Program-made: the position numbers and the translations under genes
Shown: positions 3,936 through 31,766 of the stretch, one piece after another
How the letters are laid out: each line of letters starts with the position of its first letter
How positions within the stretch are numbered: the stretch's first letter is position 1
Notes under the pieces: generated by a model
Told to the model about the DNA's origin: nothing
The model's input: only the letters and a program-made list of their open reading frames with translations
Database searches by the model: none
Source of the DNA: a virus
Strand: one strand, 5' to 3'
DNA: 31,766 nt
Virus record (IMG/VR): IMGVR_UViG_3300005939_000027
Span: 1 to 31,766 of that record

Positions 3936-4619
3936 TTAAACTTTGACGATATAGTCATTAGATGGATTAAATAATAAATCCTCAACTGTAATTGCGTATC
4001 CAACAATACGAATTGCGAAGTTTGCACTACTCGGCTGAGCTACGACTAAATCTCCTGCTGTATCGTGAAGATAAACTGGAGCACCTACTGTAAAATTAGG
4101 GAATCCAGCACTTCTAACCTTTCCATAAAGTAACATTTCAGAAGCAGCATCTGCATTACCTGCCACTAAACATATTCCTAATTGTGCTTTGAAGCCAACA
4201 TCTGTTCCGTCTAATATCCCATCTACTTTATCCCACTTACTATCACTCGCTAAGAAACAAACTTCTCCTAAAGCAGCAGTTGAACCTAATGTTACAGCGA
4301 TGACTATGCCTGACCATTTCTCATCTGCTGATAAAACTGCGTCTAATTTAATATCTGTTTCTCCGAGCTGAATATCTCCTGATAATGTGCCTCCTGCTAA
4401 TGGAAGTTTTGTTACATCTTCCGCTGGTGCTGCACTTGTCCAATCTGTTCCGTCTGACGTAAGAACCTTTCCATTGTCACCAGGAACTACACTTGGAACA
4501 TTTTTAGCATTCTTAATCGCTAATGCTGTGGCAAATTTAGCATCATCTTCTCCTACATCTAATTCCGTAGCTATTGCCTTAGAACTAGGTATAAATTTTA
4601 ATATGTCTGATAATATCAT
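3936..4619 (-). CDS. Tail-fibre module protein (227 aa) sharing a domain with the collagen-like fibre
   Basis: Residues 17-66 ([20 protein letters not shown], then [21 protein letters not shown] and SAA) nearly duplicate a segment of the 965-aa fibre. A short linker ending PLAGGTLSGDIQLGE leads to a C-terminal domain (KWSGIVIAVTLGSTAALGEV, SEMLLYGKVRSAGFPNFTVG, RIVGYAITVEDLLFNPSNDY) of a type common as a terminal fibre or capsid-decoration module. The ATG at 4619 follows junction repeat B and a short A/T leader without SD. The shared domain suggests it pairs with, or alternates with, the main fibre. Confidence 0.75.
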   Translation of the reverse strand: MILSDILKFIPSSKAIATELDVGEDDAKFATALAIKNAKNVPSVVPGDNGKVLTSDGTDWTSAAPAEDVTKLPLAGGTLSGDIQLGETDIKLDAVLSADEKWSGIVIAVTLGSTAALGEVCFLASDSKWDKVDGILDGTDVGFKAQLGICLVAGNADAASEMLLYGKVRSAGFPNFTVGAPVYLHDTAGDLVVAQPSSANFAIRIVGYAITVEDLLFNPSNDYIVKV

Positions 4620-5773: not shown

Positions 5774-8671
5774 TTATGCTACAGCGATACATCGCCATTT
5801 ACTTGTTACTGTATTCCAGACAAATCCGACATCTAATCGTGCAGTGGTTACCGTTGTTGTTGGAAGTGCGACCGTTGATGCTTCAAAAGATGCCCCCCAA
5901 CTTATTGCTCTTGCAGCAGTTCCAGTTATTTGAATCCAAAGTTTCTGTCCTTGAGTAGGTGTTCCAGATAAATTAGTGGTCATTGAAGTAATCGCTTCTG
6001 CTTGTGCTGTTAATCCATACATATCTACATTATCTGTGTTTATTGTTGGTGTAGCATGAGAAGTAGTTCCATCATATCTGATAGTTACTCTCTTATTTGT
6101 AAAAGTGCTTACAGAACTTATTGTCGGCACTACTACACCCTCAACTGCTAATACTCCAGCGGCACTTCTTGAAAGGGTTGTATCTGAAGCGTGACCTAAA
6201 TCTATTGTTGTTGGTGTTAAAGCTGCTGGTAAATCTGCTGCTCCAATAGCTGCACTTATCCAATCTGTTCCATCAGAAGTAAGAACCTTTCCTGCTGTGC
6301 TTGGAACTACACTTGGAACATTATGTGAATCTTTAATTGCTAATGCTGTAGCGAACTTTGCATCATCTTCTCCTGTATCTAATTCTGCAGCTGTTGCTTT
6401 AACGGGTATTTCAGAAGTTTTTGCTAAACCACTATCTTCTATTGCTTTGGGAGTAGCAAACTTAGCATCGTCTGTTCCCGTGTCTATTTCTGCACCCGTT
6501 GCTTTAACTAATTGACTGCCAACTGGAAAAAAAGTATCTAATTTCCAACCAGTAGAATCACCTGTATAAACAAGTAAGAATGAAGCATCGTTTATGTCTA
6601 CAACTAAATTTTCCAATTCTCCCATTATTTTACTTCCATTCCTTGCAATAGTTAAATTATTAGTAGAAAAAGAACTTGTGCTATCTGAAATTCCAACAAC
6701 ATATCCTACATCTGGTATTACTGGTAAAGTTAAAGTCCAAGTATTTCCTGAAGTATCTGCTAAAATACCATCTCCATTCTCTGACGTGTATGTATTATTT
6801 TTAACTATCCAATCTACAGCACCACCTCCACCAGCAGCAGCTTGAAAAGTTGGAGCAGTACCAACACCATTAGAAGTTAAAACCTGTGTAGCATCTCCTG
6901 TTGCTACAACAGCTATTACACCAGCGGCATCCCAAGTAATTAAATTACCGTCTGTTCCATTTGCTAAACCACTGTAAGGTAATCCTGTGCAAGAAGTTAA
7001 AACACCTGCACTTGGTGTTCCAATATTAGGAGTTGTTAATGTAATTCCAGCCAAAGTTAAAGCAGCAGAAGTCCGATTAAGAGCCACAGAAGTCGTGCCG
7101 ATATAAGTTACATCAGCTTGATAAGCTAAAGTTCCAGTAACAGCTTGTAAAGTTGCTGTGTAAGAAGTAGCTGAAGCGTTAGCCGAAGCAATAGCTGTTG
7201 AACCAGTTGAAGAACCTTTAATCGCAAGTTTAATTGTATCAAAAGTTTTTAATCCAGTAACAGATTGAATATCTGCAAGAACCATATCGCCACCACCAGC
7301 TGGTGCTGCGAAAGTTCCATCGCCTCTAAGAAAGGTTGTTGTATTATTTGGTGGTGTTGGTACTGCTCCTCCTACTGTTGCACTCATAGCTGGTAAGTCA
7401 GAGTTTATTGCAATACTTGGAACTCCTGTTGTTGTTGTATTTTTTAATATGCCAGTTGCTAACCCTGCCATATTTGTAGCATTGATAGCCACAACAGTTA
7501 GTGCCCCTGAACCTGTAGCGTCTCCTGTATGTGTAGCATTAGTTACTTTATTTGTATTTGCAACTATTTCACCCCATTTAGCCGTTGTGAGCATTCCTGC
7601 GGCAGAAACTGTTGCTGCTGGAAGAGTGACATCATCTGCTCCACCATCTGAAGTGATTGCTACCGTATTTACTCCTACTGTTCCTACACTTAAAGCTGTG
7701 GAAACATTAGTATTCTTTGCTGTATTTGCTTCAATAGCCGTAATATGTGCTACTGTAGCGTGTCCTGCAACTGCGTTTGTAGCAGCAGGAATAGAAATAT
7801 CATAAGTTGTTTTAACTAAAGGAGAAGTAACGGTTGTGCTTTCTGTTGTCTTTGCGGTATTAGCACCTATAGCAGATAATTGAGTAGAAACTACAAAGTT
7901 ATCATCTACTGTTAAAGTTTTAGGTGTTGTTCCACCAGTTGCCGTAAATCCTATTGTTTCTTCTGTAATTCCTGTTCCAGTTTCACCCTGTATTCCTTGA
8001 ATACCCTGTTCACCAGTAGCACCAGTATCCCCAGTGTCACCAGTAATTCCTTGTATGCCTTGTATTCCTTGTATTCCTTGGTCTCCAGTCGCACCAGTCG
8101 CACCAACATCACCTCTTGGAATTGTAAAATCAAATATAGCAGCACTTGTAGAACCTGAGTTGACAACTGCAGCAGATGTTCCAGGTACTCCAGTAGTAGT
8201 AGTTCCAGCATCAGCGGTAGCAGCAGTTCCTATTTCACCTTGAATACCTTGAATGCCCTGTATGCCCTGTGCTCCCGTATCACCAGTTACACCTTGAATA
8301 CCTTGTGCTCCTGTATCTCCCTTTAAATCTATTTTAGCATTTGTTAATGTAACTGTATTGGTATCATCTTTTGTAAATACCATATCATCAACAACAAACG
8401 CTGCGGATGTAATAGAAGCTCCTGTTGCTCCTGTGTCGCCAGTTAATCCTGTGTCTCCAGTATCTCCTGTTAAACCTTGAATACCCTGAATACCCTGTGC
8501 TCCCGTATCTCCAGTCAATCCAGTATCTCCAGTTAAACCTGTATCTCCTTTGAACTCAGACCTTTTTGCTTTTTTAGTTTCGTCTGTTGCTGTATCAACA
8601 ACAGCTACCCAGTCATTATTTCCAACTGGTGTTAGCTCTGTGAAGTCAGTTATTTTTTTATCTGTTGCCAT
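5774..8671 (-). CDS. Collagen-like long tail fibre (965 aa)
   Basis: The N-terminus ([20 protein letters not shown]) is a virion-attachment type of head. Collagen-like Gly-X-Y runs occupy roughly residues 42-86, 118-147 and 187-233 ([19 protein letters not shown]), broken by short globular inserts. The remainder is Thr/Ala/Ser-rich beta structure with two repeats of the module (I/L)DTG(T/E)DDAKFAT..AI, and ends in a domain of the type [20 protein letters not shown] through [14 protein letters not shown] to CIAVA. Triple-helical shaft and globular tip imply a homotrimeric receptor-binding fibre. The module [10 protein letters not shown] is shared with the 227-aa protein. Leader without SD. Confidence 0.9.
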
Positions 8672-10695: not shown

Positions 10696-11595
10696 CTATG
10701 TAGTAATTTTTACTACTAGGTATCTTGATTTGCTTCTCAAAAATGCTTTCACACCAAATAGTATTGAAGAAACAAGGTTTTTACCGAGTTTATTCGCAAC
10801 ATCTTTGATTTGAACATTAGGAGAGGCTTGGATAACTGAGTGTATCATACCCTTTCTTCCAAAATAGTTGTAACCATCTGGTAGGTTGTTAGAGATATAA
10901 ACTTGGAAACCAAGGAATCCTCCTGCATAACCGTTGCGAAGTGTCGCATCAGCCACGCTGAATCCTTTTTCAGTTCCAACAAGTTCAATCAACATTGCAA
11001 CCTCTGGGGATGTAACCACGCACCAATCTCCTGCTTCCTCAACATTTTGTTTTCTAAGAGCTAATCTTGCGTTTGCGAACACATTGATAATGTTTGCAGT
11101 TGTCGCAGTAATAGCACCAGAAGCCAGATTTGTTGCAGCATGAGCAATTGGTACACCTGTTGATTCGTAGAACAGTCCTGATGCAGCGGCAGTAGTTTCA
11201 AGTAAAACTGCTGTATCAATAACATCTCTTAATTTGTATCCTGCATTGTCTGCAAGGTCAAGCATGTAAGAGTAGTTAGCTTGTAGTTCTTCAAAATCTT
11301 CGATGTAGTTAGCAACAAGATATGCTGTGTCAACTACTAGATTTTCATCTGTAGAAGATATATCTTGCGGTGCGAAAGTTCCACCTGCTGTGTGTGCTGA
11401 AGCAGCCGTTTCGGCAATATAAGGAAAGTGAATTGTATCACCTTTAGTTAATTTTGCACGAAATTGGTTGTTAGCAACAGCATCAGCAACTAGACCTTTT
11501 CTCAAAGGAACCTGCATCATGTCCGACCAAAAGGAAGGAACCATAGCAGATACTCCTGAGCCAGCGAAATTTGCTTTTGTTAAAGTTGTAGCCAT
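10696..11595 (-). CDS. Major capsid protein, HK97 fold
   Basis: A 299-residue protein starting MATTLTKANFAGSGVSAMVP. GDTIHFPYIAE and DTAYLVANYIEDFEELQANYSYMLDLADNAGYKLRDVIDTAVL match the beta-strand and spine-helix order of HK97-fold coat proteins, and WCVVTSPEVAMLIE with GGFLGFQVYISNNLPDGYNYFGRKGMIHSV marks the A-domain. It forms the icosahedral head. It follows the scaffold gene by 10 bp, as expected for phages with a separate scaffold and no protease; indeed no maturation protease is visible in the window. Leader is A-rich with no SD, and a stable hairpin follows the stop. Confidence 0.92.
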   Translation of the reverse strand: MATTLTKANFAGSGVSAMVPSFWSDMMQVPLRKGLVADAVANNQFRAKLTKGDTIHFPYIAETAASAHTAGGTFAPQDISSTDENLVVDTAYLVANYIEDFEELQANYSYMLDLADNAGYKLRDVIDTAVLLETTAAASGLFYESTGVPIAHAATNLASGAITATTANIINVFANARLALRKQNVEEAGDWCVVTSPEVAMLIELVGTEKGFSVADATLRNGYAGGFLGFQVYISNNLPDGYNYFGRKGMIHSVIQASPNVQIKDVANKLGKNLVSSILFGVKAFLRSKSRYLVVKITT

Positions 11596-11605
11596 TGTGT
11601 TTTAT

Positions 11606-12130
11606 CTACTTTTTTCTCATCCATTCTCTAAACTTATCTATAGCTTCATAATCACCTGCTTGAGTTGCCTCACGCAAAGTATCATTAGTCCACTCTTCAA
11701 AGCCTTTAGTGTCTGGAATTTGTTTAGTAGATGGTTCGGGCGTCTTTTCCGACCTTTGGAGTTTCTCCCGTTTTGCTTCTAAGAATAATTGAACATCTTC
11801 GTTGCTTATTGCTTCGGTAGGAGTTATGCCGAGAAACTTCGCTTGCTTGAAAATGTAATCAATTTCAGCAGGCGTGTAATCTTTCATAGCAACGACAGTT
11901 TTGGCTAGCTCAGAAGAGTCAGGTGTTTCACTAACCTTCGTTTGCTTTTGTAGAATTAACTTCTCAGCTTCTTCTACTTTAGCCCTCTGTTCGGCTTTTT
12001 TCGTCCTCTCAAAGAGCTGACGATTTTTAGCTTCGATGTCCTCTTTCGGAGTTTCCTCCGTTGTTTTTTCAGAAGTTTTCTCTTCATCACCGTTTTCAGA
12101 GTCGGTGGTCTCTAATTTTTCTTCTATCAT
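11606..12130 (-). CDS. Capsid scaffolding protein
   Basis: A 174-residue, highly charged protein. Residues 1-35 are acidic and low complexity (ENGDEEKTSEKTTEETPKED). Residues 35-70 are a coiled coil (NRQLFERTKKAEQRAKVEEAEKLI). A middle globular-like segment (YTPAEIDYIFKQAKFLGI) is followed by a charged linker and a basic C-terminal helix (YEAIDKFREWMRKK), which is where scaffolds usually bind coat protein. Position immediately upstream of the capsid gene supports an internal assembly scaffold that leaves or is lost before DNA packaging. Confidence 0.85.
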   Translation of the reverse strand: MIEEKLETTDSENGDEEKTSEKTTEETPKEDIEAKNRQLFERTKKAEQRAKVEEAEKLILQKQTKVSETPDSSELAKTVVAMKDYTPAEIDYIFKQAKFLGITPTEAISNEDVQLFLEAKREKLQRSEKTPEPSTKQIPDTKGFEEWTNDTLREATQAGDYEAIDKFREWMRKK

Positions 12131-14130: not shown

Positions 14131-15385
14131 TGTGCTTTATTATGGTTTCTGTTTCTTCTACGTCTGATAGTTTATTCGGCTGTAATCCCCAAGTTGCTAG
14201 TGCTAATGATATAACCATATCATCGTGCCCACTTCTTGGTGCTGAATAATTATACTTTCCAGACGCTTCTAAAACTTTTACCTCGTATTTTTTTAACTCA
14301 TTTATAAGTATTTCGTTATTTGGTATCCTTATAACCCTTTGTTCGATAAAGATTATAAGTCTATCTATTAGTTGTTGTTTTGCTTTATGGCTGTATAGTG
14401 GGTATTCTTCTACAAACGCTTGTCGCATTAGGTCTGAAGCCACGCTATCTCCCATGCCCGTTGAATCTATTATTATTTTTGCGTTATTATATTTTTGTGA
14501 TAATGTTAAAATGCGTTGTTTTTGGTATGGATAATCAAGTTCTTTGAACCTGTCGAGATAAACTACCTTCTTGGTTGTTCTGTCCATTACAGTCAAAGCT
14601 GTGTAGTCTGTATGCCTTGCTATGTCCACTCCTAATATATATGCTGTTCCCAATACTGGTTCTGCCAAAGTATCGTCAACAATTAAGTCTATTCCTCTAA
14701 AAACTAATCCTGCTTCTGTTAAAAACTCTGCTTCGTATTCTTGTGCGAAAACCTTTTCTGGCAGACTCTCTCTTGCTTTATTATATTCTACTAAGTCAAA
14801 CAATGGGTTGTCAGAAGTCTTGAATTGAAACGCTGTGTGTTTTATTTGAAGTTCCAGGAACTTATCATAAAACCAATTTAATCCTCTTGGTGTTCCTATA
14901 TAAACAACTCTACCTTTTTGTTCGTGTGTTGTTGGCTTGATATATTGTTGCCAGATGTTCTCATCTACAAGTGCTGCTTCGTCTATTACTACTAAGTTAG
15001 TAGACCTACCAAGCATACCAGACCTTGCCTCACACGACTTTCCTTCAATAATACTTCCGTTAGTCAGCGTAAGTGTTGGAAATGGTTTCATCTGTATTCT
15101 GAAATGACTTGGGCTAATTACTTTTGAAAGAAATATAACTACCCTGTCAAACACTATTTTAGAAAGTTCATAAGAAGGTGCGGCTATCCATATTCTTCTA
15201 TCTCCTAAAAGTGCGTCTTTTACTATCTCATAAGCACAAGTATCACTTTTCCCAAATCTTCTTCCTGCACATATAATCTTCTCTCTTGCGTGGCAGTCTA
15301 TAATCTTTTTCTGACCACTGTGTGGAGTCCAACCAATCTTTTCTTGGAGTTTTAAATCGTTAATTACTTTTGGTTTTTCAATCAT
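14117..15385 (-). CDS. terL: Terminase large subunit
   Basis: A 422-residue DNA-packaging motor. The ATPase half has Walker A AGRRFGKSD (residues 40-48), Walker B LVVIDEAA (131-138) with the catalytic Glu, and the coupling motif GTPRG (164-168). The RNase H-like nuclease half has GVDIARHTDYTAL (Asp253), AKIIIDSTGMGDS (Asp306) and SGHDDMVISLALA (Asp387/Asp388), the expected three acidic sites. Length is typical. The start overlaps the LicD-like gene by 8 bp, so the glycan cassette is fused into the packaging operon. It cuts and pumps concatemeric DNA into procapsids through the portal. Confidence 0.96.
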   Translation of the reverse strand: MIEKPKVINDLKLQEKIGWTPHSGQKKIIDCHAREKIICAGRRFGKSDTCAYEIVKDALLGDRRIWIAAPSYELSKIVFDRVVIFLSKVISPSHFRIQMKPFPTLTLTNGSIIEGKSCEARSGMLGRSTNLVVIDEAALVDENIWQQYIKPTTHEQKGRVVYIGTPRGLNWFYDKFLELQIKHTAFQFKTSDNPLFDLVEYNKARESLPEKVFAQEYEAEFLTEAGLVFRGIDLIVDDTLAEPVLGTAYILGVDIARHTDYTALTVMDRTTKKVVYLDRFKELDYPYQKQRILTLSQKYNNAKIIIDSTGMGDSVASDLMRQAFVEEYPLYSHKAKQQLIDRLIIFIEQRVIRIPNNEILINELKKYEVKVLEASGKYNYSAPRSGHDDMVISLALATWGLQPNKLSDVEETETIIKHNDYE

Positions 15386-15944
15386 ATTTTATAAAGTATT
15401 TATTAGCGTAATCAAACCAATCTTTTTTCCCAGAAACTGGAGTTCTCCAATCATCATATCTTCCTGTAAGATAATCATCATATCTTTCAGGTATGTTGTA
15501 TCCAAGTAGTTTAATAGTTTTTAAGGTCCATCTCGGTCTGATAACAATTCCGTCACTTCCAAGGTGTAGAAAATCATCACCCCATATACCATAAAAGAAA
15601 CAGATGTCAAATATCACATTCGTCTTTTCGTGCATATAGGCTAACGACATTATTAAACCACCCCACTCTTGCATCTTAATAAGACGAAATCCTTTTGTTA
15701 AATAACTTTGATGAAGTGCATCTGTGTTCGGCTTGTATTCATCTTCCATCATTACATCTATGTCTAAGTCTAAATCGTGCGGAATTACTGTCTTATCTCT
15801 GACCATTCCAAGCAATGTTCCAAAACCAAGTTGCCAGTTGAAGTCTTTAAGTTCTTTTATCCCAGTATCAAGTGTTTCTTTCCAGTTTTTTCCATCTAAT
15901 GGTCCTGCTTTAAATGGATACAGTATTACTTTTGGTCTGGGCAT
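15378..15944 (-). CDS. LicD-like nucleotidyltransferase-fold glycan phospho-transferase
   Basis: A 188-residue protein with the LicD hallmark pair GTLLGMVRD (residues 42-50) and HDLDLDIDV (56-64), whose acidic residues bind metal, plus a later YDDWRTPVSGKKDW that matches the family's C-terminal signature. LicD proteins transfer phosphocholine or related groups from CDP-activated donors to cell-surface glycans. The gene overlaps the cytidylyltransferase by 35 bp, so donor synthesis and transfer are probably coupled. The acceptor and the transferred group cannot be read from sequence. It is shorter than cellular LicD proteins, but both motifs are intact. Confidence 0.85.
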   Translation of the reverse strand: MPRPKVILYPFKAGPLDGKNWKETLDTGIKELKDFNWQLGFGTLLGMVRDKTVIPHDLDLDIDVMMEDEYKPNTDALHQSYLTKGFRLIKMQEWGGLIMSLAYMHEKTNVIFDICFFYGIWGDDFLHLGSDGIVIRPRWTLKTIKLLGYNIPERYDDYLTGRYDDWRTPVSGKKDWFDYANKYFIKYD

Positions 15945-16338
15945 TTCTTAATTTTGTGCTGCTTATGTTGGGAACTCTGTCTTTATAAATAAGATAGATG
16001 TTATTTCTTTTCCAAAAACTTCTATCAACGCCACACCTCTTACTTGTTTTGCTAATATCCCAGTCATCTCCTGTAAGTCTGAAACAAGGTGCGTTGTCTA
16101 TCGCTATTTTTAAAGATTCAGATTCAGAGTTTACAATATAAACAGGGCAGTTAATAAAATCTTTTAATCCTTTAAGTCTTTCTTGTTCGGTCTGACTTGT
16201 TTTCTTTCCTAAAAGTTTAGAAAACTTATCGCCGTTAATTGTGATTATAATATCTTTACTAATTAACAGAGCAAACCTGATTAACTCTTTATGTCCTTCG
16301 TGTAATAAATCAAATGTTCCTGGAATAATTACCTGCAT
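15910..16338 (-). CDS. CTP-dependent cytidylyltransferase-like protein
   Basis: A 142-residue protein with the nucleotidyltransferase signature GTFDLLHEGH (residues 7-16, HxGH at 13-16) and the second motif ISSTKLR (125-131). This pair is typical of glycerol-3-phosphate, ethanolamine-phosphate and related cytidylyltransferases that make CDP-alcohols, though pantetheine-phosphate-type enzymes share the fold. The neighbouring LicD-like gene needs a CDP-activated donor, which favours the CDP-alcohol reading. It overlaps the upstream GT2 gene by 10 bp. Substrate is not determinable here. Confidence 0.85.
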   Translation of the reverse strand: MQVIIPGTFDLLHEGHKELIRFALLISKDIIITINGDKFSKLLGKKTSQTEQERLKGLKDFINCPVYIVNSESESLKIAIDNAPCFRLTGDDWDISKTSKRCGVDRSFWKRNNIYLIYKDRVPNISSTKLRNAQTKSNTVSI

Positions 16339-17039
16339 ACAAATGGATTAAAATAAAGTTGTCCTTCTGGAAGTTTAACTTTTGGGTGGTGTAGTCCTTC
16401 GTCTTTTGCTGCTCTATATTCTCCCATATCCCACTCCCCATTACCAGCGTGTATTCCAGTTATTGAAGGAATAATATAATTTATAAGTCCAGCATTTGCG
16501 GCTCTATCACTTATTTCAATATCTTCATCTCCATAAAGTCCATATGTTTCTATTAAAAATCCACACTTCTTGAATACTTCTCTACTGAAGATTCTTGGAC
16601 CTATTGCTCTACACACTATAACTTCCTTTCCATTTATAATTGACTTTGGTGTTGTGTATTCTAATGTTAAAATTGCATCCCACCTCTCAACCATTGTTGC
16701 CATTATACCTGTGCCTTCAATCGCTTTGCCATATTCTAACATTTCTGGCAACCAATTATCTGGCATTAAGAAATCATTTTCTAAATCTATAATCCAGTCT
16801 CCTCTACAAACAGCGTAAGCGGCGTTCTTTGACTTGCTAAGGCAATCGTTTGGTCTTTTAATGATTATGTCTGGGTTATACTTATCCCATAGTCTCTCCA
16901 CGCCATCTGTTGAACTATTGTCTATCCATATTAACTCTGGTCTTGTTGTTCCAAGTCTTGCCAGGTTGTGGTCCATAAACTGTTCTGTTAGTGGAGTTCG
17001 GTTATATGTACATACTACCCACGAAATAAGTTGCTCCAT
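16329..17039 (-). CDS. Family 2 glycosyltransferase
   Basis: A 236-residue GT-A enzyme. WVVCTYNRTPL at residues 7-17 is the nucleotide-binding start, ELIWIDNSSTDG is the usual first loop, DWIIDLENDFLMPDNWL holds the metal-binding acidic site (DLEND), and YGLYGDEDIEISDRAANAG resembles the catalytic-base ED motif. It should use an NDP-sugar and act in the cytoplasm. The C-terminus is short and has no membrane segment. It starts 25 bp inside the preceding transferase gene. Likely part of one pathway with the four neighbours. Confidence 0.87.
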   Translation of the reverse strand: MEQLISWVVCTYNRTPLTEQFMDHNLARLGTTRPELIWIDNSSTDGVERLWDKYNPDIIIKRPNDCLSKSKNAAYAVCRGDWIIDLENDFLMPDNWLPEMLEYGKAIEGTGIMATMVERWDAILTLEYTTPKSIINGKEVIVCRAIGPRIFSREVFKKCGFLIETYGLYGDEDIEISDRAANAGLINYIIPSITGIHAGNGEWDMGEYRAAKDEGLHHPKVKLPEGQLYFNPFVCR

Positions 17040-17893
17040 ATTCTTATAGGTTTATTAAATCCTTTAAATCTTCCACTAAACTTGACTTTTCTTACAAACT
17101 GCTTGTACATATCTGCGTAAGTGGTAGGTTTTATCTTTGCAATAGCAGTATCTACTACTTGACAGAACTTATCTTGATACTCGTTCATCTCTAATTCGTC
17201 TTCGGCATCTTCTTCTGAAATAATAAAGGTTTCGTGTTTAACAAACGGTTCCCCGTAAGTAATACAATCTCCTTTTTTCTTTACTATTGATTGAAATATG
17301 TATCCGCCAAATATGTCATCGTGTCTTTTAAAATTTCCTATGTTCGGTAGAAAGAATAATGCTGGTATTGCTTCTCTTCTAACAGCAACATTCATACCAG
17401 AAAATGGAACAAAAGAAGTTGATACACGAGTTCCAGTTATTTCTGGTTTGTTTGGCTCGTTTTTACTTCTATCCGCACCATTTATGTCAAGTACATTTGT
17501 CCAAAGACCTACATTTGCGACAACTCTCTTGTCTCTTGCTGAATAAGGAAAACCTCTTGGATAAAATCCTGTGTTTTCTAAAGGATTATCCCACAAACAA
17601 CCTTCTGTGTCCAGTGCATCAAGATGTTTATCTTGAAAATCTGGTTCAATCACACAATCTGAGTCAATAATAAAGACTATATCTGCTTTAGATTTGTAAA
17701 GAGCATAGTTTTTTGACGCAGAAGACTTGTGTAAATACTTAAAAAGCGGAAAGTCTCTGTAATCTAAAACCTCAAAAGGGTATTTATACTTACCACAAGA
17801 GTCATCTGTGATGTATAAATTACCTTCAAAGGTCTCTAATCCATTATTAAAGCTTTCTGTTGTCTCTATATGGACACAAGATACTAAATCCAT
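17015..17893 (-). CDS. RGP/UDP-arabinopyranose-mutase-like glycosyltransferase-fold protein
   Basis: A 292-residue GT-A-type protein. The acidic site is IVFIIDSDCVIEPDF. GFYPRGFPYSARDKR with the following VVANVGLWTNVLDINGADRS, and PFSGMNVAVRREAIPALFFLP with KRHDDIFGGYIFQSI, recall the reversibly glycosylated polypeptide family, which includes UDP-arabinopyranose mutases; relatives occur in phages. It might interconvert sugar-nucleotide ring forms or transfer sugar. It is 3 bp from the dehydratase gene. The fold is well supported and the exact reaction is not. Confidence 0.75.
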   Translation of the reverse strand: MDLVSCVHIETTESFNNGLETFEGNLYITDDSCGKYKYPFEVLDYRDFPLFKYLHKSSASKNYALYKSKADIVFIIDSDCVIEPDFQDKHLDALDTEGCLWDNPLENTGFYPRGFPYSARDKRVVANVGLWTNVLDINGADRSKNEPNKPEITGTRVSTSFVPFSGMNVAVRREAIPALFFLPNIGNFKRHDDIFGGYIFQSIVKKKGDCITYGEPFVKHETFIISEEDAEDELEMNEYQDKFCQVVDTAIAKIKPTTYADMYKQFVRKVKFSGRFKGFNKPIRIWSNLFRG

Positions 17894-17896
17894 ATT

Positions 17897-18916
17897 CTAT
17901 TCCAGCCAAATTTGACGATAAAGATACCATTGCACTACCTTCTCTAAGCTACTTCTAAAACTCTTTGGATATGAAAATCCTTCGCTTTCTAATAACTCTC
18001 CAGATAAACTATATCGTAAATCATGACCTGGTCTGCTGGAATGAAAATCCACCATTTCATATTCTAACTTCTTACCAAGTATATCGGCAATCATCTTTGC
18101 TAATGTAAGGTTGTCTACTTCCTCCTCCCCCACTATGTTATATTTACCTTGTTTTCCTGAACCGTCTAAACACTTACCATTCTCTGTTAAGAATAAAAGT
18201 GCGGCACATATATTTCTTGCGTGTAAGTAATGTCTTTGTCCTGCTCTCTTTTTATCTTCTGAAGCGTGAATAAACACCTTCTCTCCTTTCAACGCACACT
18301 TAATAACTAAAGGTATAAACTTCTCTGGATGTTGTCTTTCGCCGAAGATGTTCATCGAGTGTGTCACTATAATCGGCAACTTGTATGTGTTAGCAAACGC
18401 TAATGCAAACTCTTCTCCCCCCGCCTTTGATGCAGAGTACGGATTACCTGAGTTATATCTATCCCATTCTTTGTAGTCTACCCCGTCTGGTGCTGTTCCG
18501 AACACTTCATCCGTACTGAAATAAATAATTCTTTTTGGATTCATCTCTCGGCAGGCTTGTAAAAGATTAACAGTTCCAATTACATTGTCCATCGCAAATA
18601 ACCAAGGGTCTTCTATTGAACGGTCTACATGGCTTGATGCGGCTAAATGCCATACATAGTCTGCTTTAATCGGCACATTCAATGCAGATTTTAAATCCCA
18701 CCATAAGAAACTAACTCTGTTCTTTTCTTTTTCCCAGATGTCAATGTCTAATAAACGATGTAAGTTTCCAGACAAATCAAGTCTGTCTAATATAATAATA
18801 TCCCAGTCAGTGTTCTTTAACACCCCCTCTACCATATGAGAGCCGACAAAGCCTGCACCACCCGTAATCAATAAAACCTCTTTTTTAGTTGTTTGCCCTG
18901 GCATATATTCTTTCAT
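17897..18916 (-). CDS. NAD-dependent nucleotide-sugar 4,6-dehydratase-like enzyme
   Basis: A 339-residue extended short-chain dehydrogenase. The NAD-binding motif GGAGFVG lies at residues 19-25. STDEVFG holds the Thr-Asp-Glu triad (135-137) that marks sugar 4,6-dehydratases rather than simple epimerases, and Tyr160-x3-Lys164 (YSASK) completes the active site. Later segments (SMNIFGERQHPEKFIPLVI, GQRHYLHARNICAALLFL, YNIVGEEEVDNLTLAKMIADILGK) fit the family. It would make a 4-keto-6-deoxy sugar nucleotide, but no reductase or epimerase to finish the sugar is visible, so the phage may rely on host enzymes. First gene of the inserted glycan cassette. Confidence 0.88.
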   Translation of the reverse strand: MKEYMPGQTTKKEVLLITGGAGFVGSHMVEGVLKNTDWDIIILDRLDLSGNLHRLLDIDIWEKEKNRVSFLWWDLKSALNVPIKADYVWHLAASSHVDRSIEDPWLFAMDNVIGTVNLLQACREMNPKRIIYFSTDEVFGTAPDGVDYKEWDRYNSGNPYSASKAGGEEFALAFANTYKLPIIVTHSMNIFGERQHPEKFIPLVIKCALKGEKVFIHASEDKKRAGQRHYLHARNICAALLFLTENGKCLDGSGKQGKYNIVGEEEVDNLTLAKMIADILGKKLEYEMVDFHSSRPGHDLRYSLSGELLESEGFSYPKSFRSSLEKVVQWYLYRQIWLE

Positions 18917-19520: not shown

Positions 19521-19549
19521 AGTATAACTTGTCCGCTGGCAGATGTCAA
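19521..19549 (-). promoter_or_regulatory. Leftward promoter for the packaging/structural arm
   Basis: Read on the minus strand: TTGACA (19549-19544), 17-bp spacer, TATACT (19526-19521). Start of transcription is expected near 19514-19513, which coincides with the ATG of the first gene. It is divergent from the structured-RNA promoter at 19667. It is the only strong leftward promoter I found near the head of the arm. Confidence 0.75.
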
Positions 19550-22812: not shown

Positions 22813-23076
22813 ATGAAACTAAAAGAAATAGAAAAATTGGCTGAAAGTAATAAGCATCTATCTTCTTGGGAAATTAAGCAGGATATTTTGGACACTGAAG
22901 TCGAAATTGTTAACATGGAAATAGAAGCCAAGCATCTTGCCACTACTCCAATGGGAATGCGAGAAGCAAGATGGAATCATATGAGAGCTGACGCAAGAGA
23001 ATCTGGAATAAAAAATAGAAAGAAATTCATAGAGCAATTAAAGGCAATTTTAAGTTACAGAGAAAATTTCAACTAA
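22813..23076 (+). CDS. Small helical protein (87 aa)
   Basis: An 87-residue, charged, almost all-helical protein (MKLKEIEKLAESNKHLSSWEIKQDILDTEVEIVNMEIEA; later KNRKKFIEQLKAILSYRENF), likely a coiled coil. It is 1 bp from the next ATG, so the two are co-translated. Unknown function. Confidence 0.65.
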   Translation: MKLKEIEKLAESNKHLSSWEIKQDILDTEVEIVNMEIEAKHLATTPMGMREARWNHMRADARESGIKNRKKFIEQLKAILSYRENFN

Positions 23077-23942: not shown

Positions 23943-24419
23943 ATGAAAAAAATAATCTTATTATCCTTTCTTTTAATCTCAGTAGTTTTGCTTTATAGGA
24001 CTGTGTTTAGCGAGGACGAAGAACCTATAAACTACTACAATGAAAGTGATATGTATGTCTACGCAGTAAGTCCGCCTTATTTTATTAAAAGCCAAACGCT
24101 AGGCAATAAAAATGTGGACCACATAATAGACGCTTACTATAATATAATAGCCCAATATGATTGGAACACAGACATTGCTTATGCGATTATGCTCTGTGAG
24201 AGCTCAGGCGATAGCGATGCTCATAACCTTACAGGAAGAACAAGGGATAACTCTCACGGACTATTTCAGATTAACCTTTATGGAAACCTTGTTAACAGCA
24301 GACCGACAGCAGATTGGCTGAGGATTCCAGCTAATAACATTTCCTTTGCTTTCTCATTATATGAAGCGAGAGGTTGGAAGCCGTGGAATAACTGCTATAA
24401 AGAGGTAAAAAGCCGTTAG
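23943..24419 (+). CDS. Membrane-anchored lysozyme/transglycosylase-like protein
   Basis: A 158-residue protein. Residues 4-18 (IILLSFLLISVVLLY) form a signal-anchor or uncleaved signal segment. The catalytic domain has AIMLCESSGDSDAHN with Glu86 as the expected general acid, then SHGLFQINLYGN (104-115), the usual S-x-GL-x-QI(N) motif of lytic transglycosylase/lysozyme folds, and a C-terminal AFSLYEARGWKPWNNC. It should cut peptidoglycan, as an endolysin with a signal-arrest-release-type anchor or as an entry/virion enzyme. It lies in the early arm rather than next to a holin. A TGTGGACCACA palindrome at 24113-24123 lies within the gene. Confidence 0.82.
   Translation: MKKIILLSFLLISVVLLYRTVFSEDEEPINYYNESDMYVYAVSPPYFIKSQTLGNKNVDHIIDAYYNIIAQYDWNTDIAYAIMLCESSGDSDAHNLTGRTRDNSHGLFQINLYGNLVNSRPTADWLRIPANNISFAFSLYEARGWKPWNNCYKEVKSR
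24113..24123. promoter_or_regulatory. Palindrome TGTGGACCACA inside the lysozyme gene
   Basis: A perfect copy of the element found four times at 20105-20359 (as the reverse complement), here encoding Asn-Val-Asp-His. An intragenic site for the same regulator would let it act as a roadblock on lysozyme transcription. A chance match to an 11-bp word in 32 kb is not excluded. Confidence 0.5.
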
Positions 24420-28531: not shown

Positions 28532-28560
28532 TTGACATTTAGGAAGTAATTTGTTATCAT
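28532..28560 (+). promoter_or_regulatory. Promoter of the SD-rich cassette
   Basis: TTGACA (28532-28537), 17 bp, extended -10 TGT-TATCAT (28555-28560). Start about 28567. The leader holds AAAGGAGG (28583-28590), a strong SD, for a GTG start 8 bp later. Confidence 0.75.
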
Positions 28561-28598
28561 TATAATAGCACATTAACAATTGAAAGGAGGCGAGAAAA

Positions 28599-28847
28599 GT
28601 GAAGCACGAATACAGTGAACACCATGCCGTCCCGCAAAGTCGCGGAAACTACGACAAGAAAGTTTTACTCCCCAAGAAGTTCCACCAACTTTGGCACGCC
28701 TTGTTTAATAACCTTTATGATATAGAGATAGAGAATTTCATAATGGATATTAACTGGCGAATGAAGACCAAGCAAAAGATTACCGCAGAAGAGATTGAAG
28801 ATTTAAAAACTAAAATCAAGAAAGGAGAACATTATTTAAGGAGATGA
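28599..28847 (+). CDS. Small HNH-like protein (82 aa)
   Basis: The start is GTG, fixed by GGAGG 8 bp upstream. The protein begins MKHEYSEHHAVPQSRGN, followed by KKVLLPKKFHQLWHALFNNLYD. The HH-x-P-x-SRG...K-x-x-H-x-x-WH-x-LF spacing matches a small HNH-type family whose histidines would bind metal. The residues usually forming the nuclease core (HH, N, H) are present, but the protein is much shorter than typical HNH enzymes. It may nick DNA or only bind nucleic acid. First gene of the cassette. Confidence 0.65.
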   Translation: MKHEYSEHHAVPQSRGNYDKKVLLPKKFHQLWHALFNNLYDIEIENFIMDINWRMKTKQKITAEEIEDLKTKIKKGEHYLRR

Positions 28848-28851
28848 GGAA

Positions 28852-29007
28852 ATGCAATATCTTATCTACGGAGAAATCTTTGAAATGTGGACTTGGGAAA
28901 TCGGCAAAAAGTTCTACAAGTTCGGAATAGTTTATCGTGCTATTCCAACAAAAGACAAAGATAGGTTTCTTATTAAGATAAAAAAAATTCATATTGAGGA
29001 GGTGTAA
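28852..29007 (+). CDS. Small protein (51 aa)
   Basis: A 51-codon frame, MQYLIYGEIFEMWTWEIGKK, basic and beta-rich, ending IKKIHIEEV. AAGGAGATGAGGAA immediately precedes the ATG, and its last codons contain GAGGAGGTG, the SD of the next gene. Unknown function. Confidence 0.6.
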   Translation: MQYLIYGEIFEMWTWEIGKKFYKFGIVYRAIPTKDKDRFLIKIKKIHIEEV

Positions 29008-29009
29008 TA

Positions 29010-29318
29010 ATGGCAAAGGTAATTATGATAGACTGTGATAATACCCTTACCAAAGAAACTTGTTGGACTTACGAAGAATGCTTGAACGCCGAACCAAGGC
29101 AAGATGTTGTTGATAAGGTAAACTCTCTGGTCAATGTATGGATAATCGTATACACCGCCAGAGCAGATGAGCTTATTCCAGCAACAATCAAATGGTTACG
29201 GAAGCATAATGTCAAATACCACGCTATCTCCAACATCAAGATACCAGCAGATTACTATGTCGATGATAAGAATGTTTCCATAGACCAATTCCTCGAAGGA
29301 GGGATTCCAGATGGATAA
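29010..29318 (+). CDS. HAD-superfamily phosphatase-like protein (102 aa)
   Basis: A compact HAD core: IDCDNTLT (nucleophile Asp8, acid Asp10), YTARADEL (motif II Thr), a conserved WLRKHNVKYHAIS, and YYVDDKNVSIDQF (motif IV Asp pair). No cap domain is visible. Such small HADs in phages often act as 3'-phosphatases or nucleotide phosphatases. Its C-terminal GGIPDG is encoded by the SD of the next gene, and the stop overlaps the next ATG by 8 bp. Confidence 0.82.
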   Translation: MAKVIMIDCDNTLTKETCWTYEECLNAEPRQDVVDKVNSLVNVWIIVYTARADELIPATIKWLRKHNVKYHAISNIKIPADYYVDDKNVSIDQFLEGGIPDG

Positions 29319-29499
29319 GTTTGAAAGGTTGTTCTTCCATTTAAGGGAAGAGATTAAAGGCTATCGTGAGGCAGGAATTAACTGCCAAGAACTGTGGTTG
29401 GTAATAGACTATGTTCGTGTAGCCGAGAAAGCTTATAAGGATTTCAAAAAGAAAACAGGTATTCTCGGTATTCACAAAGGAGGAGTTCCCCGTGGATAG
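29311..29499 (+). CDS. Tandem paralogue 1 (62 aa)
   Basis: A helical 62-residue protein, MDKFERLFFHLREEIKGYRE, with a Lys/Arg-rich middle (AEKAYKDFKKKTGILGIHKGG). It is clearly homologous to the next ORF: matching positions include MD(K/R)FE, LFF, L(R/K)EE, AEKAY, DFK and TGI. It starts inside the last codons of the HAD gene by ATGGATAA and ends in the SD for its paralogue. Function unknown. Confidence 0.7.
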   Translation: MDKFERLFFHLREEIKGYREAGINCQELWLVIDYVRVAEKAYKDFKKKTGILGIHKGGVPRG

Positions 29500-29704
29500 A
29501 TTTGAAAGTTTATTTTTCCAGTTAAAGGAAGAAATGGAAGAGTATGCGAAAGTAGGTGTTCACGGCAGAGAGTTCTGGGAACTCGGGCAGTCTATTGCGA
29601 AAGCCGAAAAGGCTTACATAGACTTTAAACGGCGAACGGGAATACGAGGCATTTATAAAGGAGGTAATTCTAATGAGAATGTATCCAAATACAAAAGAAG
29701 TTAA
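29492..29704 (+). CDS. Tandem paralogue 2 (70 aa)
   Basis: It uses a GTG start (VDRFESLFFQLKEEMEEYAK by reading, Met in translation), fixed by AAAGGAGGAG upstream. It overlaps its neighbour by 8 bp (GTGGATAG), exactly as its paralogue overlaps the HAD gene, so the duplicated unit (181 bp) included the coupling signal. The C-terminus extends past IYKGG with NSNENVSKYKRS, which runs into the metallophosphoesterase gene. Function unknown. Confidence 0.7.
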   Translation: MDRFESLFFQLKEEMEEYAKVGVHGREFWELGQSIAKAEKAYIDFKRRTGIRGIYKGGNSNENVSKYKRS

Positions 29705-30752
29705 TGGAAGGGTAATGTGTCCAGAGTGCAACAAAGACTTCTCTGACAGAAGTGGTTTTAGATACCACTGGAACCACAATCACGCTGTTGCACAGAAAAA
29801 GAAAGACATTATATTAAATGTCAAAGAAATCGCACAACAGGTGGTAGATACTCTTCCAAAACTCAAAAGACTTGACCCTCCTCAAATCAGGAAAGGGGAT
29901 TTGAAACCAGAGTCTTGGGTTCTTGAACTGTCAGATTGGCACTACGGACAACTCGTGAAAGCGGTTGAAGTAGGAGGACTTTCTGAATACAGTCCTTGTA
30001 TCGCAAGAAAAAGGTTATCCCTTTTGGCTGAAAAGATAATAAGGTTTCTTGAATACCACCCTAACAAACCCCATGAGTTAGTTATTACTTGTCTTGGGGA
30101 CATGGTAGATGGTTCAATCCTTCGTGGAAACCAGCAGTCTAACATTGAGTTCGGTGTGTGTAAGCAAGTCATTGAAGCAGTGGAAATCTTAGCAGACTTC
30201 ATTATTATATTAACAGGATACTTCCCTAAAATCCGTTTCTACGGGGTTTATGGAAACCATGCCAGACTAACACCTAATCCAAAAGACGCCCCTCCACAAG
30301 AGAACTTTGACTTACTAACATATCACTTTATGAAGCAAAGACTGCTTGGGCTAAAAGATATTCTAATAGAATATACCGAAGCCCAGCATATGATTGTAGC
30401 AATTAACAATCATAATTTCTGGCTAGACCACGGAGATACCGTTAGAGGTTGGGCAGGATACCCTTATTATGGTGCTGACCGCCAAAAGAACAACATCCAA
30501 GCAATTCTCGGAATGTTCTCTGAAAAAGCAGATTATATGCTTATGGGACATCATCATCGTCTTGGTTTCTTTAACAACATTATAGCCAACGGCTCTTTTG
30601 TTGGGGGAGATTTATTCTCTATCGGAAAGTTAAGACGAATGGGAATTGCTGAACAGTTCTTGTTTGGGGTCAATGAAAAGCACGGCGTGGTTTGGACAAG
30701 ACCAATTAAGTTATCCGAACCAGTAAGAGAACAGGTTAAGATTTATCGATAG
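29673..30752 (+). CDS. Zinc-finger metallophosphoesterase (359 aa)
   Basis: The ATG at 29673 is fixed by GGAGGT 6 bp upstream. Residues 16-37 form a C2H2-like finger (Cys16, Cys19, His32, His37). The calcineurin-like core follows: SDWHYG (Asp88, His90), LGDMVDGS (142-146), YGNHARLT (GNH 194-196), DHGDT (252-256) and MGHHHRLG (292-297), with DxH, GDxxD, GNHxx and GHxH motifs all intact. The arrangement suggests a DNA-directed nuclease or phosphatase, with the finger giving DNA binding. It may work with the recombination genes, or act as a counter-defence enzyme; the sequence does not decide. Confidence 0.9.
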   Translation: MRMYPNTKEVNGRVMCPECNKDFSDRSGFRYHWNHNHAVAQKKKDIILNVKEIAQQVVDTLPKLKRLDPPQIRKGDLKPESWVLELSDWHYGQLVKAVEVGGLSEYSPCIARKRLSLLAEKIIRFLEYHPNKPHELVITCLGDMVDGSILRGNQQSNIEFGVCKQVIEAVEILADFIIILTGYFPKIRFYGVYGNHARLTPNPKDAPPQENFDLLTYHFMKQRLLGLKDILIEYTEAQHMIVAINNHNFWLDHGDTVRGWAGYPYYGADRQKNNIQAILGMFSEKADYMLMGHHHRLGFFNNIIANGSFVGGDLFSIGKLRRMGIAEQFLFGVNEKHGVVWTRPIKLSEPVREQVKIYR

Positions 30753-30763
30753 CTTCCTAATAG

Positions 30764-30785
30764 CCTAGTACACTAGGAACTAGGA
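30764..30785. repeat. Palindrome and tandem ACTAGGA repeat after the cassette
   Basis: CCTAGT-AC-ACTAGG (30764-30777) is a perfect inverted repeat, and ACTAGGA occurs twice in tandem (30772-30778, 30779-30785). It lies just after the metallophosphoesterase stop. It could be a regulator site or a recombination joint; no attachment-site partner was found. Confidence 0.5.
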
Positions 30786-30814
30786 ACCTGAATGAAGTTC
30801 TTTCAAAGGTTTAA

Positions 30815-30879
30815 AGAGAGCAATCCAAAACCCACCGAGTTTATCGGACTATTAAAAGGGGTTGCTCTCTCCTTTTCTT
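30815..30879 (+). terminator. Terminator closing the SD-rich cassette
   Basis: AGAGAGCAA (30815-30823) pairs perfectly with TTGCTCTCT (30862-30870), followed by CCTTTTCTT. Inside it an additional hairpin CCGA/TCGG (30835-30848) and AACCC/GGGTT provide competing pairings. The long, branched stem ends the transcript begun at 28532. Confidence 0.75.
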
Positions 30880-30880
30880 A

Positions 30881-30902
30881 TACTACCTGTTAATAGGTAG
30901 TA
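30881..30902 (+). promoter_or_regulatory. Hairpin one base before the start codon at 30904
   Basis: TACTACCT (30881-30888) and AGGTAGTA (30895-30902) form a perfect 8-bp stem with loop GTTAAT, ending one base before the ATG. No U-run follows. It may restrict ribosome access or be a protein-binding palindrome; the gene has no SD. Confidence 0.65.
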
Positions 30903-30903
30903 A

Positions 30904-31356
30904 ATGAAACAAAAGCACATACTTTGTAAGCATTGTAAAAAAGATGTAAAGTATTATAATAAAATTATGCAAGCATTTTTAGAATACTGTCCAAAATGTA
31001 GAGTGAATAAAGGATTACACAATGATTGTCCAGATAATAAATTAATAAATAATATGAAAACAAACGAGAAAATAAAATGGGCAAAATTATTTCATAATAC
31101 TTATGAAGAATTAGCACCTTCTTTCGGATATGAAACAAGAGAAGATACCAAAGAGTTTGACCCTGAAAGTAAAAATGGGAAGTTGATGTTAGAAGTTTGT
31201 AGTAGAGTTCTCTCTCAACAAAAACAAGAGATAATGGAGGGATTAGAAAGAAAAATTACATTTAAAGAAGCATTAAAAATTAGAGGTCTTTTCTTTCAAG
31301 GGTATCAACGGAGAGATAATGAAATACATAAACTCAAACAAAAACTAAATAAATAA
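30904..31356 (+). CDS. Unknown protein with N-terminal zinc-ribbon-like motif (150 aa)
   Basis: A 150-residue protein. CKHCKKDV (Cys8, Cys11) and EYCPKCRVN (Cys29, Cys32) form a likely zinc ribbon. The rest, from an internal Met about residue 51 (MKTNEKIKWAKLFHNTYEEL, then APSFGYETREDTKEFDPESKNGKLMLEVC), is a segment I associate with conserved small phage proteins. The ribbon and this domain may be a fusion, or the gene may really begin at the internal Met. No SD is present at either site. Function unknown. Confidence 0.65.
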   Translation: MKQKHILCKHCKKDVKYYNKIMQAFLEYCPKCRVNKGLHNDCPDNKLINNMKTNEKIKWAKLFHNTYEELAPSFGYETREDTKEFDPESKNGKLMLEVCSRVLSQQKQEIMEGLERKITFKEALKIRGLFFQGYQRRDNEIHKLKQKLNK

Positions 31357-31357
31357 T

Positions 31358-31766
31358 ATGCAACTACAAAATCAAGTTAGTTCATTAGAATTTTCTAAAA
31401 AATTAAAAGAGTTGGGAGTGAAGCAGGAGAGTTTATTTTATTGGATTAAACTTTATGATGGAACAATTATTTTAAATCACTCATTGATGAGAGAGCATTC
31501 TGTGGCAGGTGATTTATATCAGCAATTTCCTTCTGTCAAATCTAATAAGTATTCCGCCTTCACAGTAGCTGAATTAGGAGAGATGTTGCCAAGAGACTAT
31601 ATGTCATTTCATAATAGTATTGGTAAATGGTTTTGCGAAGATTTGGACACTTTTATCCAACCAGAATATAAAGCTAATGATTATAACACCGAAGCAGACG
31701 CCAGAGCCAAAATGTTAATTTATTTAATAGAGAATAAAGTAATAGATGTAATAATAATAATAATAT
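31358..31766 (+). CDS. Partial conserved phage protein (136+ residues)
   Basis: The ATG at 31358 follows AAATAAT; no stop occurs before the window end. The protein starts MQLQNQVSSLEFSKKLKELG with a following VKQESLFYWIKLYDGT, a pattern I associate with small conserved phage proteins near recombination genes. The last visible codons are repeated ATA (poly-Ile) in an ATA/AAT run at 31748-31766, which may be a low-complexity assembly edge rather than real sequence. Function unknown. Confidence 0.6.
   Translation, partial: MQLQNQVSSLEFSKKLKELGVKQESLFYWIKLYDGTIILNHSLMREHSVAGDLYQQFPSVKSNKYSAFTVAELGEMLPRDYMSFHNSIGKWFCEDLDTFIQPEYKANDYNTEADARAKMLIYLIENKVIDVIIIII

Follow-up and report, generated by a model that had tools for sequence, protein, structure and literature searches.

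Six neighbouring genes with strong Shine-Dalgarno sequences in a phage genome whose other genes have SD-less leaders

Two start grammars were found on one phage genome: six neighbouring genes (the cassette) carry strong Shine-Dalgarno (SD) sequences, and the remaining genes follow A-rich leaders without them. Islands of the same kind are present in related phages, where the SDs are conserved between orthologues. On balance, we think it probable that these islands are accessory operons, themselves probably acquired, which continue to initiate through SD pairing in a host capable of reading either start mode; acquisition and the reading of both modes by the host ribosomes are what we infer from these observations.

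Results

Two classes of start in the window

The window is the whole of virus record IMGVR_UViG_3300005939_000027, a linear and possibly incomplete contig of 31,766 bases. Its minus strand encodes the terminase, portal, major capsid, a collagen-like tail fibre, glycosyltransferases, and a nucleotide-sugar epimerase, and its plus strand encodes small genes together with the recombination genes ERF, NinG, and a PD-(D/E)XK nuclease. The two near-identical contigs (L002 and L003), one of which comes from metagenome 3300025698 of Ace Lake, Antarctica (PMC8542988), stop at window position ~24265 or earlier, short of the cassette, which is known from one contig only. Comparison with these two contigs also brought to notice a 51-aa segment, common at 80% identity to a 227-aa protein (3936-4619) and the collagen-like tail fibre (5774-8671). 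Amid the packaging genes, a cluster at 15378-18916 holds LicD-like and cytidylyltransferase-like genes, two glycosyltransferases, and an epimerase showing 55% identity with that of Synechococcus phage ACG-2014f. A AAAGGTCG-like element was seen 20-40 bases 5' of several early start codons (20735, 21022, 21332, 21959, and 22272); its placement is striking, and a genome-wide count gave no excess over chance.

For each gene, the pairing of its leader with the 16S rRNA tail was scored. A preliminary description of this DNA had held that the genes from 28599 to 30752 all have strong SDs, that some of them start with GTG, and that nearly all other genes follow SD-less A/T-rich leaders, and the scores agreed with it throughout. 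The six cassette genes had SD matches of 7-8 nt with duplex energies of -11.3 to -16.1 kcal/mol, and two of them (28599 and 29492) had GTG starts (Table 1). All 45 non-cassette genes had matches of 4 nt or less and no energy below -4.8 kcal/mol. When SD strength was compared between the block and the rest of the full record, strong SDs were present in 6/6 cassette genes and nowhere else (Fisher p ~6e-8, run as 6/6 versus 0/44), and the edge was sharp at both ends of the cassette. Because the chance rate of a cassette-grade SD site was about 1% per gene (14/1360 in mock windows in relatives), six neighbouring genes with strong SDs are not a chance occurrence. Several cassette SDs fall within the 3' end of the preceding gene and are there translated as KGG or EGG. 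Among 41 non-cassette leaders, A(-3) and A(-5) were each found in 78% and U(-1) in 76%, and C(-1) never occurred; U(-1) was present in 0/6 cassette leaders versus 31/41 of the rest (p=0.0007). The A-rich, U(-1) leader style was also seen in contigs G002, G003, and L144.

Table 1. Features of the cassette and its surroundings (SD match length in nt; duplex energy in kcal/mol)
Feature	Coordinates	Strand	Start	SD match	Energy	Remarks
Sigma70-type promoter, TTGACA-N17-TATCAT	28532..28560	+				Promoter scan
82-aa HHxxPxSRG...FHxxWHxLF protein, HNH-like by eye	28599..28847	+	GTG	7	-13.6	SD AAGGAGG
51-aa protein	28852..29007	+	ATG	7	-11.3	SD TAAGGAG
102-aa predicted HAD-superfamily phosphatase, polynucleotide kinase-phosphatase/EcbF-like	29010..29318	+	ATG	8	-16.1	SD AGGAGGTG
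62-aa small protein, tandem duplication copy 1	29311..29499	+	ATG	7	-13.2	SD AAGGAGG; overlaps both neighbours
70-aa small protein, tandem duplication copy 2	29492..29704	+	GTG	7	-11.6	SD AAGGAGG
359-aa predicted metallophosphoesterase, Mre11/PolD DP1-like	29673..30752	+	ATG	8	-13.0	SD AAGGAGGT
Terminator-like stem-loop, 12-bp stem AGAGAGCAATCC / GGGGTTGCTCTCT, long loop, T-rich tail	~30815..30880	+				Region 30753-30890, z=-3.2
Two right-flank genes in SD-less leader style	30904..31765	+				Start scoring
Other sigma70-type sites	19549(-), 20693, 22232, 23745, 24901, 25414, 25850, 26187					Same type as cassette promoter; 11/12 matches at 19549(-), 20693, 22232, 23745, 24901, 25850, 26187

Promoters, terminator, and contig integrity

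The cassette had been credited with its own promoter and terminator. Both are present, the second as a terminator-like stem that is absent from the list of a simple terminator scan, but the promoter is like others of the phage and is no mark of the cassette: several promoters of the TTGACA-N16/17-TATA type are found elsewhere in the contig, and exact TTGACA-N16-18-TATA(A/C)T sites numbered 4 in the phage versus 0.13 expected. Over the phage family, sigma70-like promoters were enriched (99 versus 52.7 expected) and those of the Bacteroidota type were not (69 versus 67.7 expected), which makes a host from the Bacteroidota improbable. The Bacteroidota are the best-known SD-less group; they were first considered as hosts on account of the SD-less leaders and became improbable on promoter type. 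Patescibacteria may be a plausible candidate.

The restriction of the cassette to a single contig, beyond the point where the near-identical contigs stop, would also be expected of an assembly chimera in which a foreign fragment was misjoined into the phage contig. However, two misjoins would be required, because to the right of the cassette the genes are again SD-less and phage-like in style; moreover, the promoter of the cassette is of the same kind as those elsewhere in the phage, and comparable islands are present in phages from other metagenomes. We therefore regard a chimera as very unlikely.

Predicted products of the cassette

From its predicted products, the six-gene operon would be a DNA/nucleotide-processing set. 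The 82-aa protein had no Pfam, PHROG, or NCBIfam family above the cut-off, and showed 44% identity over 48 aa with the product of an SD-less gene in portal-family relatives G021 and G023; the 51-aa protein had no family match in the family searches. The HAD protein had the DxDx(T/V) motif I as MIDCDNT, an acidic motif IV as VDDKN, and family-level matches to phrog_1238 (2e-18) and phrog_415 (3e-7), the match to TIGR01689 (3e-6) being below the cut-off. The two duplicated small proteins were 50% identical to each other, and no relatives of the duplicated protein were found in the viral collection. The metallophosphoesterase matched phrog_284 (3e-42) and PF00149; its identity with the closest relatives among those found was approximately 25-34%. 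Its motifs DxH, GD, GNH, HGD, and GHxH were all present and showed little or no variation when 6 to 37 sequences were aligned, and its N-terminus had a CxxC...HxxxxH zinc-finger-like segment. The predicted structure (pLDDT 83.7) showed a calcineurin-like fold, for which the best PDB matches were PolD DP1 (E 3e-8) and Mre11 (E 6e-7), with TM scores of 0.4-0.5.

Origin of the cassette

The cassette was likely, though not provenly, acquired from elsewhere. A comparison of codon usage between the block and the rest of the phage, which the preliminary description had proposed, showed the cassette to be atypical and farther from the rest than any equal-sized gene block (0/36). The shift was mainly in C-ending codons, which were raised for Phe, Tyr, Asn, Ile, and Thr, with GCC, TCC, and CCC also up; the dinucleotide composition was ordinary (12/88). 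The rise for these first five amino acids is also seen in highly expressed genes in many bacteria and would fit a native strong-expression module whose SDs and codons were selected for high output. However, no SD precedes the structural genes, the major capsid among them, whose products are needed in the largest amounts, and the accompanying rise of GCC, TCC, and CCC points to composition rather than optimisation; such a module is extremely unlikely.

The cassette flanks shared no direct repeat longer than 7 bp that would mark an insertion, and family searches found no integrase or transposase among the six genes; on both counts the cassette lacks the marks of a mobile element. In other viral contigs there was no match to the whole cassette or to its first gene and no relative of the left-flank gene, and searches of the viral collection found neither a donor of the cassette nor a relative covering the site. 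Two profile scans of genome contigs for the HHxxPxSRG family, made with degenerate query alignments composed partly of self-written bait sequences, confirmed nothing, and an Rfam search gave no match. In a metallophosphoesterase tree, the window protein stood on a long branch next to a clade in which most of the phages are SD-poor. The recent acquisition put forward in the preliminary description is favoured by the atypical codon usage and by finding the cassette in no other viral record. As a full account it falls short, given the ordinary dinucleotides, the missing flanking repeats and donor, the phage-type promoter, and the related phages, in which SD islands mostly have native codon usage and SDs that are still strong.

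SD islands in related phages

The portal search gave 61 related loci, which were SD-poor throughout. The survey set consisted of portal-family contigs with 1360 called genes, most records being fragments and the window's own cassette being included in the counts; genes were called as simple open reading frames, the best start being chosen among several, and this inflates SD and mock counts alike. SDs at or below -7 kcal/mol showed no excess (111 versus 106 in mock windows), whereas those at or below -14 kcal/mol numbered 10 versus 1 and were mainly clustered in short islands. The islands of G002 and G034 have three genes each, including a trypsin-like protease, and that of G013 has four tiny genes, two of them with zinc-ribbon cysteines; G020 (HNH) and G025 have single strong-SD genes. 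Four-gene islands are present in each of G003 and G033, a neighbouring lineage that shares the metallophosphoesterase and in which neither portal nor terminase could be matched convincingly. Single-gene strong SDs that overlapped an upstream coding sequence or were oddly spaced (L194-L196, G026) were not taken as islands. The cargo differs from island to island, and the relatives' SDs are as strong as -18 kcal/mol. In G002/G034 and G003/G033 the island lies directly 3' of the metallophosphoesterase gene, itself SD-less there, a proximity that is partly a search artefact because the first such islands were found through that gene.

Some further features were noted in these contigs. A perfect 9-bp hairpin stands just 5' of the island at ~23995-24020 in G002 and ~23025-23050 in G034 (GGGGAGGGA/TCCCTCCCC versus GGGGAGAGA/TCTCTCCCC), with one compensatory change. 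The lone strong-SD gene of G025 (11489-12019, L280), GNAT-like by eye, lies within an SD-less nonulosonate (sialic-acid-type) synthesis-like cluster, which also holds an HAD gene distantly related to that of the cassette. In L142 (4016-5581), an internal TTG with the SD AAAGGAGGTGA (-17.5 kcal/mol) in a long SD-less frame may be an internal start.

Conservation of island SDs

Conservation was measured in the relatives' islands. The island proteases of G002 and G034 are 65% identical, and four-fold sites differ at 47% of those compared; the three SD cores agree at 28/30 positions (P 2e-6 to 2e-4 at neutral identities of 0.53-0.64, which were taken from four-fold sites and may be affected by selection and alignment choice). 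These P values are somewhat generous, because the 10-nt cores were picked knowing that they were SDs. In both pairs of related phages (G002/G034 and G003/G033), orthologous island genes retain their SDs despite diverged third-codon positions. When codon usage was ranked against null blocks, the proportion at least as far as the island was 42/49 in G034, 8/45 in G003, and 7/40 in G033, all native, 4/50 in G002, which is borderline, and 1/37 in G013 and 0/36 in the window, which are unusual. Islands of seemingly different age all have strong SDs and are therefore unlike expected leftovers. Island SDs are probably read and selected, because orthologues keep them after synonymous divergence, mostly with native codons.

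These results bear on the reading in which the cassette arrived recently and its SDs are inert leftovers of an SD-using donor. The atypical codon usage and the lack of a relative with the same cassette in the viral collection are consistent with it, but the relatives' SDs outlast synonymous divergence where codon usage is native, and the cassette genes have no alternative leader (U(-1) in 0/6), so that if the SD were disregarded, nothing evident would mark their starts. We consider inert leftovers distinctly improbable.

The same conservation would also suit a dedicated translational class. In Flavobacterium johnsoniae, the genome of which is otherwise SD-less, rpsU (bS21) is translated by bS21-lacking ribosomes (McNutt et al. 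2023, PMC9976891). By this precedent of exceptional SDs read by specialised ribosomes, the strong-SD genes would form a regulon switched on by ribosomes with an exposed 16S tail, and selection would keep the two modes separate, enabling the two sets of genes within one cell to differ in the timing of their expression or in the ribosomes that translate them. SDs that reach -18 kcal/mol in relatives and are kept after codon amelioration fit this reading, which is nonetheless unlikely: bS21 (PF01165) was found in 0/29 records, mostly fragments, with the control positive in 6 genomes; the family's promoters are sigma70-like and not Bacteroidota-like by the counts given above; the varied island cargo fits accessory genes better than a regulon; and several cassette SDs are just -11 to -13 kcal/mol. 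If true, a specialised-ribosome switch would be more exciting than plain dual-mode reading.

Discussion

In the account that we prefer, that of accessory operons in a host reading both start modes, core genes would start without an SD, from unstructured leaders that are rich in A and carry A(-3) and U(-1), and the accessory operon genes would start by strong pairing of the SD with the 16S rRNA tail. The operon was most likely taken from an SD-using gene pool and would be transcribed from a phage-type sigma70 promoter. The host ribosomes would retain a readable anti-SD, and the SDs would persist because these ribosomes still read them, the SD serving as the start signal of genes without an A-rich leader. 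SD-less lineages retain the anti-SD in 16S rRNA; phages with both start modes would offer natural matched pairs for testing SD reading in SD-less cells. SD islands may also serve as a simple sequence mark for locating accessory cargo in uncultivated phages.

Compared with phage phrog_284 metallophosphoesterases of the Mre11/PolD-DP1-like type, the cassette protein has all metal-binding motifs, the predicted fold, and the phage setting in common, and differs in its additional N-terminal zinc-finger-like segment. The extended SD of rpsU in SD-less Bacteroidota, with energies of -14 to -21 kcal/mol, belongs to a single gene and is conserved across species (PMC9976891). The phage islands resemble it in having exceptionally strong SDs on a few genes of an otherwise SD-less genome, but they are multi-gene phage operons with varied cargo rather than one host gene, no bS21 gene was found in the 29 possibly incomplete records, and the promoters are unlike those of Bacteroidota. 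Like phage morons and other accessory cassettes, the cassette is compact, with its own promoter and terminator, variable cargo, and atypical codon usage; unlike morons, its initiation mode differs from that of the rest of the phage, and the SD persists in islands with native codons.
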